NCBI GenBank assembly: GCA_002050165.1
Contig: MWSW01000012.1
Location: 186,001-250,000 of the forward strand
DNA from: Candidatus Tepidiaquacellales bacterium OLB4/UTCHB1
GTDB lineage: Bacteria > Bacteroidota > Ignavibacteria > Tepidaquicellales > Tepidaquicellaceae
Reading direction: 5' to 3'
DNA: 64,000 nucleotides
The notes under the pieces are model-generated. The model made no database searches, had not been told where the DNA came from, and saw only the letters and a list, made by a program, of their open reading frames with translations. The position numbers and the translations under genes were made by a program. Below, piece by piece: positions 34,801 through 37,516 of this stretch. Positions within the stretch are counted from its first letter, which is position 1, and each line of letters opens with the position of its first letter.

Positions 34801-36741
34801 TTATTTCTTATCATTATCATCCACAACTTCGAAGTCTGCATTTTCAACGTTCTCATCACTACCGGATTTTTTTTCATCTTGTTGTCCTGCATTTTGTCCT
34901 GCCTGTCCGCCGGGTTGCTGCGTTGCCTGAGAATACATTTTAGTTGAAGCTTCGTTCCATGCAGCATTAAAACCATCAATTGCAGATTTCAATTCATTCA
35001 AATCAGATGAGCCTTTCACACTTTTCAATCTATCAATTGAAGCCTGGACTTTACCCTTTGTATCGGCATCCATTTTTTCGCCAAGCTCACCAAGTTGCTT
35101 TTCACCCTGAAATGCGAGTGAATCTGCCTGATTTTGCATATCAATTAATTCCCGTTTTTTCTTATCCTCGGCTTCGTGAGTTTTGGCATCTTTCTTCATC
35201 TTTTCAATTTCTTCATCACTCAAACCGGATGAATGGGTTATCCTTATATCCTGCGTTTTTCCGCTCCCCATATCTTTCGCAGATACGTTAAGAATACCGT
35301 TTGCATCAATATCGAAAGTTACTTCAATTTGCGGAATACCCCTCGGTGCCGGTGGAATTCCATCAAGGTGAAATCTTCCGAGTGTTCTGTTATCAACTGC
35401 CATTTGCCTCTCACCCTGTAAAACGTGAATTTCAACAGACGGCTGGTTGTCCGAAGCAGTAGAAAATATCTGAGATTTTTTTGTCGGAATAGTTGTATTT
35501 GAATCTATCAACTTCGTCATTACGCCACCGAGAGTTTCTATACCAAGTGATAACGGGGTAACATCAAGCAGAAGGACATCCGATACATCACCCGCAAGCA
35601 CACCACCCTGGATTGCCGCTCCGATTGCCACAACTTCATCCGGGTTAACACCTTTGTTCGGTTCTTTTCCGAATATTTTCTTAACTGTTTCTTGTACAAG
35701 CGGAATCCTCGTTGAACCGCCAACAAGAATAACTTCGTCAATGTCATCTTTAGTAAATCCCGAATCCTTCAGTGCTTTTTCACAAGGTTCAACAGTTCTG
35801 TTTACAAGATGGTCAACAAGTTGTTCAAATTTCGCTCTCGTTATTGTTTCCAAAAGAAATTTAGGACCTTCAGCCGTTGCGGTAATGTACGGCAAATTAA
35901 CCTCAGTCTGAGTTTTACTCGAAAGTTCTTTCTTCGCCTGCTCGCCTGCGTCTTTCAGCCTTTGTAGCGCCATTGGATCTTTCCTAAGGTCAATACCTTC
36001 CTTCTTCTGAAACTCATCAGCCAGATAGTCAATAAGCACCTGATCGAAATCATCGCCACCGAGGTGACCGTCGCCGTTACTTGATTTAACTTCAAATACA
36101 CCATCACCAAGTTCAAGGATTGAGATATCGAATGTACCGCCGCCAAGATCGAACACAGCAACTTTTTCGTTAGCTTTCTTTTTGTCCAAACCATACGAGA
36201 GCGCTGCTGCCGTTGGTTCGTTGATTATTCTCTTCACTTCAAGCCCTGCAATTTTTCCAGCATCTTTAGTTGCCTGTCTTTGTGCATCATTGAAATATGC
36301 AGGTACAGTAATCACCGCCTCCTTAACCGGTTCCCCAAGATAATCTTCAGCAGTTTTCTTCATCTTCTGAAGTATCATCGAAGAAATTTCCTGAGGTGAA
36401 TAAATCCTCTGCTGGCCGGTCGCAGGGTCTGTTATCTCAACTCTCGCAACATCGTTTTCGCCCTTAATTACTTTGTAAGGAACTTTGGTCATTTCGTCTG
36501 ATACTTCATCAAACTTTCTACCCATGAAACGTTTAATCGAAAAGATTGTGTTTTGAGGATTGGTTACTGCCTGCCTCTTAGCCGGTTCGCCTACCAACCT
36601 GTCACCCGATTTAGTAAATGCAACAATTGACGGAGTCGTCCTGTGACCTTCAGCATTTTGAATTACAACTGGATCGTTCCCTTCCATTACTGCTACAACC
36701 GAGTTTGTAGTACCCAGGTCAATTCCTATTATTTTACCCAT
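34801..36741 (-). CDS. dnaK: Molecular chaperone DnaK (Hsp70)
   Basis: ATP-dependent chaperone. The nucleotide-binding domain begins [20 protein letters not shown] and holds [20 protein letters not shown], the phosphate loop [19 protein letters not shown] and [13 protein letters not shown]. The substrate-binding domain follows from about 390 ([20 protein letters not shown]), then the helical lid. A Gln/Gly-rich linker ([16 protein letters not shown]) and the acidic tail [12 protein letters not shown] complete the protein. Length 646. A Shine-Dalgarno sequence (AAAAGGAG) precedes the start. It lies downstream of the small heat-shock gene on the same strand with a hairpin between them. No dnaJ, grpE or CIRCE element is nearby. 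Confidence 0.97.
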
Positions 36742-36814: not shown

Positions 36815-36840
36815 AGCATCAGGACAAAAGCCCTGATGCC
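36815..36840 (-). terminator. Hairpin between hsp20 and dnaK (weak terminator or processing site)
   Basis: GCATCAGG (36816-36823) pairs with CCTGATGC (36832-36839). On the minus strand it is followed by TTCTATTATATAAG, a poor T tract. It may attenuate read-through from the small heat-shock gene into dnaK rather than stop it. Confidence 0.55.
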
Positions 36841-36856: not shown

Positions 36857-37273
36857 TTACTTTACAGCGATTTCTTTTACAACCGGTTTTGCCTCTTCTA
36901 TTTTCGGAAGCGTCAGGTTTAATACTCCGTCACTGTATTGTGCATCTATGCTGTCAATCTTAATATCTTTACTGAGATTGAAACTTCTGCTGTATTCGCC
37001 ATAATACCTCTCGTTTACCACAAGGTTCTTTTCTTCTTTATTGTAAGTCTGGTTCTTCGTACCTTTTACCGTTAAAACGTTGTTCTCAACATTAATCTTA
37101 ATATCCTCTTTCTTAATTCCGGGCAATTCAAGGTTGAGATAAAAATTATCACGATCCTCAGTAATTTCAACTTTTGGTGTGAAACCTGAATTGAGCTCCG
37201 GTGTCGGAAAATCCTTGAAGAAAGTGTTTATCGTATCTAACAAGTCGCTGTTTCTGAATTTTACTAAGTTCAT
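36857..37273 (-). CDS. Small heat-shock protein, Hsp20/alpha-crystallin family
   Basis: ATP-independent holdase that binds unfolding proteins and hands them to DnaK-type chaperones. The 138 residues have a short N-terminal arm, an alpha-crystallin domain (about 28-128: PKVEITEDRDNFYLNLELPG ... NVLTVKGTK ... YSDGVLNLTLPK) and a C-terminal IAV, matching the I-x-I/V anchoring motif. A strong Shine-Dalgarno sequence (AAAAGGAGGAA) supports the start. Expression is likely controlled by sigma-54: a consensus -24/-12 promoter lies 50 bases upstream, with repeated dyads behind it. It sits directly upstream of dnaK. Confidence 0.94.
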   Translation of the reverse strand: MNLVKFRNSDLLDTINTFFKDFPTPELNSGFTPKVEITEDRDNFYLNLELPGIKKEDIKINVENNVLTVKGTKNQTYNKEEKNLVVNERYYGEYSRSFNLSKDIKIDSIDAQYSDGVLNLTLPKIEEAKPVVKEIAVK

Positions 37274-37322
37274 TTTTTTATTCCTCCTTTTAGGGTTTTA
37301 ATTTTAACTTTACTTACTATAT

Positions 37323-37338
37323 AGCAACTTCCGTGCCA
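37323..37338 (-). promoter_or_regulatory. Sigma-54 (-24/-12) promoter of the hsp20 gene
   Basis: On the minus strand the sequence is TGGCACG-GAAG-TTGCT, preceded by C. It matches the sigma-54 consensus YTGGCACGrNNNTTGCW at every fixed position, with the required ten bases between the GG and GC. The predicted start, near 37312, leaves a leader of about 39 bases containing the Shine-Dalgarno sequence. Confidence 0.85.
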
Positions 37339-37350
37339 GACCAACTTTTG

Positions 37351-37426
37351 TGAATTATTGTTCAATAATATTGAATTATCGTTCATATTTAGCATATAAA
37401 AGAGATTTTAAATGAAATATGTTTCA
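37351..37426. promoter_or_regulatory. Three phased TGAA-N6-TTCA dyads, candidate enhancer-binding protein sites
   Basis: TGAATTATTGTTCA (37351-37364), TGAATTATCGTTCA (37372-37385) and TGAAATATGTTTCA (37413-37426) share the palindrome TGAA-N6-TTCA. Their starts are 21 and 41 bases apart, about two and four helical turns, so they face the same side of the helix. Centres fall near -46, -67 and -108 from the predicted start. A degenerate fourth copy with a 5-base spacer is at 37456-37468. Confidence 0.65.
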
Positions 37427-37516
37427 CACTATTATGAAATTTTGAGTTGAAAAGGTGAACAGGCTTCAACACCGGTTATACTAAATTTACCAAATTCGAA
37501 TTAACTTTCTCTGAGG

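Follow-up and report, generated by a model that had tools for sequence, protein, structure and literature searches.

Heat-shock genes are usually controlled by sigma-32 or HrcA, and their control is poorly mapped outside the Proteobacteria and Firmicutes. The closest described parallel to the locus considered here is ibpB of E. coli, a small heat-shock gene for which, as the work is cited in a later paper, a sigma-54 promoter was described in addition to a sigma-32 promoter (Kuczynska-Wisnik et al. 2001, cited in PMC8155344). A survey of predicted sigma-54 promoters (PMC12316311, PLoS One 2025) further reports that IbpA (COG0071), GroEL/GroES, GrpE, DnaJ and DnaK are enriched behind such promoters in Bacteroidota and Planctomycetota. 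It does not mention Ignavibacteria, its passages on the chaperone cluster give neither an enhancer nor an activator for these genes, and our literature search found no study of sigma-54 in Ignavibacteria. Sigma-54 control of heat-shock genes is already known and what we describe is not a new kind of system; what the present case contributes is a further lineage, the arrangement of the enhancer and a candidate for its activator.

The locus lies in a stretch of 64,000 nucleotides, referred to below as the window, from the genome of Candidatus Tepidiaquacellales bacterium OLB4/UTCHB1, a member of the Ignavibacteria. Like ibpB it comprises a sigma-54 promoter and, behind it, a small heat-shock gene, but it belongs to another phylum and another gene neighbourhood, an enhancer array and a candidate activator can be defined for it, and no counterpart of the sigma-32 promoter was recognised in a scan that covered sigma-70-type promoters only. 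Based on the sequence evidence set out below we propose, with a probability of roughly 0.77, that this hsp20 gene is driven by sigma-54 from an element at 37338-37323, with an enhancer-binding protein (EBP), here termed EBP A, as the candidate activator acting at phased dyads. Such a sigma-54 chaperone circuit is directly testable, given that its promoter is conserved, its enhancer follows a recognisable grammar and a candidate activator can be named.

The hsp20 promoter and the adjacent dnaK gene

The hsp20 gene (36857..37273, minus strand) encodes a small heat-shock protein of the alpha-crystallin family (138 aa; PF00011, 2e-24) and is preceded by a Shine-Dalgarno sequence, AAGGAGG, at 37283..37289 on the minus strand. 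Further upstream the same strand carries the -24/-12 element TGGCACGGAAGTTGCT (37323..37338), which reads TGGCACG-GAAG-TTGCT from 37338 to 37323 without a mismatch to the sigma-54 consensus and has GG at -24 and GC at -12 (37325/37324) in the canonical spacing. The initial annotation had reported a perfect element about 50 bases before the hsp20 ATG and a transcription start near 37312; the match is indeed exact, the distance to the ATG at 37273 measures 49 bases, and the arithmetic behind the predicted +1 at 37312 is correct. In a pattern scan this was the sole perfect match to TGGCACG-N4-TTGCW both in the window and in the 2.42 Mb genome, and the three one-mismatch sites found elsewhere in the genome lie within genes in two cases and before a small zinc-ribbon ORF in the third. 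The scan for sigma-70-type promoters gave no matches above chance in the hsp20 upstream region.

An hsp20 gene was found in 38 of the 40 relatives searched. Throughout families f1 and f2 (about 37 genomes) a -24/-12 element of the form TGGCA(C/T)-N5-TTG precedes every readable orthologous hsp20, typically some 60-90 bp ahead of the start codon and in one case at 147 bp, and the only clear exception is G016, whose gene is a paralogue with 35% identity. In a class-wide survey of 129 genomes, for which about 55 further hsp20 loci were read and a weighted score was compared with that of shuffled sequence, the element was clear in f6, f8 (with C for T at -26), f10, f12, f16, f18 and part of f4 and f17, and its canonical form was not found at hsp20 in f7, f11, f13, f14 and f15. 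The conservation of the element across families provides strong evidence, of a comparative kind, that the hsp20 promoter is functional.

The next gene downstream is dnaK (34801..36741, minus strand), for which co-control is possible. It might be held that hsp20 and dnaK constitute a single sigma-54-driven operon whose upstream array also governs the main Hsp70, inasmuch as the two genes lie on the same strand, are separated by 115 bp and keep their order in most f1 genomes. Between them, however, is a terminator- or attenuator-like hairpin with a weak T tract, GCATCAGG-GCTTTTGT-CCTGATGC (36816..36839, minus strand), which is GC-rich, has 8 bp and gives an MFE fold of z = -4.4. Hairpins recur at this place in most relatives, and about 570-730 bp separate dnaK from hsp20 in G006, in G018 and in the majority of f2 genomes, all of which makes a single operon rather unlikely. 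Read-through into dnaK had also been suggested, tentatively, in the initial annotation; since a stable hairpin separates the genes it is weakly supported, and the circuit may mainly serve hsp20 with some read-through into dnaK. A match of the hairpin to Rfam BSnc120 was discarded (27 versus 114 bits).

The phased dyad array

Upstream of the promoter lie three putative enhancer dyads, given here as read on the minus strand: TGAACAATAATTCA (37351..37364, centre about -46), TGAACGATAATTCA (37372..37385, centre about -67) and TGAAACATATTTCA (37413..37426, centre about -108). They are TGAA-N6-TTCA palindromes whose starts at 37351, 37372 and 37413 are 21 and 41 bases apart, just as originally annotated. 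A fourth dyad, which had been described as degenerate, is TGAAGCCTGTTCA (37456..37468, minus strand, centre about -150); it has the form TGAA-N5-TTCA, with perfect arms, a 5-bp spacer that is one base shorter, and a start 43 bases from that of the third, and it is the less certain of the four. Most enhancer sites lie farther from their promoter than the proximal dyad does.

The genome contains 228 TGAA-N6-TTCA dyads, from which about 0.017 would be expected per 180 bp, as against the three found at hsp20. The array is retained in most of the relatives read. When 180 bp of sequence preceding the -24 element was examined at 36 hsp20 loci, 16 such dyads were recovered (three of them the window's own) versus 0.55 expected from dinucleotide shuffles, in which the maximum was 4; one-mismatch versions in the same upstream regions numbered 51 versus 10.5 expected. 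The spacing was examined with a relaxed dyad consensus, picked after the data were seen, and pairs 18-22 bp apart numbered 23 in f1 versus a shuffle mean of 0.43 (maximum 3) and 11 in f2 versus a shuffle mean of 0.35 (maximum 2), with additional peaks at 40-41 and 61 bp. Phasing at 20, 21 and 41 bp is accordingly seen in both families, and, judged from sequence, the spacing is one of helical phasing with a two-turn repeat. Counted from where the -24 box begins, arrays usually sit at -106/-86/-66, and the window uses the grid positions -88, -47 and -26. The sites of other families, read by eye, resemble TGNCA-N3-TGNCA with a repeat of about 20 bp. The enhancer grammar that emerges is one of dyads two helical turns apart, with a motif that drifts from a TGNCA type to TGAA-N6-TTCA.

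We also read 30 perfect TTGGCACG-N4-TTGCW sites in relatives, among which a multi-dyad TGAA array accompanies the hsp20 site of G008 alone. This implies that the array is specific to hsp20, and fits the earlier idea of an activator dedicated to this gene. Free EM motif discovery fell onto A+T-rich composition and was replaced by the above tests of TGAA-N6-TTCA and of spacing; in a genome-wide search for paired GAA-N6-TTC dyads, coding sequence swamped the signal and the search was left unused.

RpoN and the candidate activators

Control of the proposed kind, as the initial annotation had pointed out, calls for both RpoN and a sigma-54 activator. All 40 relatives searched encode RpoN, and that of the window genome is full length with the box ARRTVAKYRE. 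The same genome encodes four NtrC-like AAA+ proteins (EBPs A, B, C and D), two of which, A and B, have a usable GAFTGA/GSFTGA loop; C and D were excluded as hsp20 activators because the loop is missing. These two NtrC-like response regulators, encoded at G000:C8:44529-45881 and G000:C6:129804-131168, have lost GAFTGA and probably do not act through sigma-54.

EBP A (G000:C6:233685-234794, 370 aa) combines a sigma-54 AAA+ domain bearing GAFTGA (PF00158, 1.8e-70) with a lid (PF25601) and a Fis HTH (PF02954); its AAA+ domain begins at residue 6, and a domain search found no N-terminal receiver or sensor domain. It shares the AAA+ sigma-54 domain, the GAFTGA loop, the Fis HTH and upstream dyads with NtrC, NifA and NorR, but unlike them is devoid of a receiver, GAF or other N-terminal sensor. 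With its AAA+ sigma-54 domain, its C-terminal Fis HTH and no receiver, it is reminiscent of PspF (PDB match 1.7e-64), from which it differs in scoring 277.3 bits versus the 443.55-bit cut-off of NCBIfam TIGR02974, in having about 60 residues between the lid and the HTH, and in the overlap of its gene with lptE. It falls below the cut-offs of the PspF, NifA, NorR and NtrC equivalog models, and its nearest solved relatives are the NtrC1, FleQ, ZraR and PspF cores. The missing receiver does not exclude an activator function, with which it would be compatible as in PspF. The activity of PspF is set by PspA, and EBP A, being without a sensor domain, would similarly have its activity set by a partner protein, or else by its abundance.

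Each of the 40 relatives has one clear orthologue of EBP A. Its gene overlaps lptE (assigned from sequence) by a few bases, and overlap or abutment is observed in nearly all relatives; the present proposal assigns a likely target to this orphan EBP, which adjoins lptE throughout the relatives examined. In the window genome a search of up to 300 bp upstream of A found neither a sigma-54 site nor a TGA(A/C)-type dyad that would point to autoregulation; two of the relatives have an isolated dyad in this region, and a third has one sigma-54-like match there.

Evidence linking EBP A to the array comes from its DNA-binding region. A (T/S)PRN-type recognition helix in EBP A goes together with TGAA dyads, and LRS, found in G003, G013 and G017, with none. 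The hsp20 genes of these three genomes are among the closest to that of the window and keep the promoter, and the absence of TGAA dyads fits the altered recognition helix of their EBP A. In partial Mantel tests in f1 with the AAA+ core controlled, which are subject to inflation by relatedness among the genomes, dyads correlated with the recognition helix of A at r = 0.37 (0/2000 permutations) and with its HTH at r = 0.29 (p = 0.0015); the lid and the linker gave 0.10 and 0.19, and two segments of the AAA+ core, which does not co-vary, -0.06.

EBP B (G000:C8:100319-101734, 472 aa), a response regulator with a receiver and GSFTGA whose gene adjoins that of an RsbU-like phosphatase, is the one protein of this genome besides A that has kept a usable sigma-54 loop; were it the activator, sigma-54 would still drive hsp20 and the gene would answer a two-component signal. 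However, close orthologues of B (at least 55% identity) are missing from G001, G009-G012, G021, G022 and all of f2, where phased dyads occur, and clear dyads are likewise present in G001, G009, G011, G021 and G022. Nothing was found that ties B in particular to hsp20, and we consider B an improbable activator of this gene. As a close B orthologue is missing from several array-bearing genomes, and A is conserved and its recognition helix co-varies with the dyads, the comparison indicates that EBP A is most likely the activator of the hsp20 promoter. It is highly improbable that the dyads are repressor or activator operators of a sigma-70 or sigma-32 type promoter and the sigma-54-like site is incidental, as the usual mode of heat-shock control, the presence of HrcA in the genome and the closeness of the proximal dyad to the promoter might suggest, because the -24/-12 element is retained in every readable f1/f2 orthologue, the arrays are placed upstream of this element without covering it, the region has no more sigma-70-like matches than chance would give, and CIRCE was found neither in the window nor at the hrcA-grpE-dnaJ operon.

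For CIRCE we used the pattern TTAGCACTC-N9-GAGTGCTAA with up to three mismatches, which gave no match either in the window, bearing out the reported absence, or at the hrcA locus; as a positive control, the core was detected in Clostridia-type hsp20 loci. The scan of the hrcA-grpE-dnaJ operon covered 7 kb (L327, G000:C19:117500-124500) without a recognisable CIRCE, which raises the possibility that the HrcA operator is diverged here.

The proposed sigma-54 and EBP A circuit and its distribution

In the preferred reading, with EBP A acting at the dyads, sigma-54 RNA polymerase would transcribe hsp20 from the -24/-12 element, starting at 37312, and expression of the gene in vivo would depend on sigma-54. 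Dimers of A would bind the three or four TGAA-N6-TTCA dyads, which lie about 20-21 bp apart on the same side of the helix just upstream of the promoter, and would assemble there into a hexamer; ATP-driven remodelling of the closed complex by A would generate the open complex. The inducing stress might be heat, protein misfolding or envelope stress. The conservation of promoter and phasing, the presence of RpoN in 40 of 40 relatives and the availability of a candidate activator all support the original suggestion of sigma-54 control through an enhancer-binding protein at phased dyads.

Beyond f1 and f2, EBP A is absent from all 13 sampled genomes of f11, and the hsp20 -24/-12 element from seven of the eight f11 loci read, which speaks for A as the activator; the joint absence amounts to one evolutionary event. 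EBP A is present in f7, f13, f14 and f15, where the canonical hsp20 site is absent, so its function in those families has to be an additional or a different one. A more tentative extension is that the class as a whole possesses a sigma-54 stress circuit that is separate from HrcA and sigma-32 and through which A, translationally coupled to lptE, would tie the state of the envelope to a cytosolic holdase chaperone. In such a reading sigma-54 might serve chiefly this circuit in the window genome, where no more than two competent activators and a single perfect promoter remain; we regard the extension as possible but doubtful.

The hsp20 upstream regions of f7, f11, f15 and f19 (e.g. L189, L199, L178 and L214) keep TTGGCAC followed by N3-4 and TTT(C/G)nTA in place of N5-TTGC, which is possibly an altered -12 element or a different type of promoter. 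The number of perfect TTGGCACG-N4-TTGCW promoters varies greatly within one family, with 14 in G005 versus none with the leading TT in G000, and in G005 and others such sites precede genes for response regulators and secreted proteins. Finally, a Zixibacteriota locus (L231, DOTU01000194.1) has two hsp20 genes, each with a sigma-54-like site, at -61 and -77, suggesting that the sigma-54/hsp20 arrangement may reach beyond the Bacteroidota.
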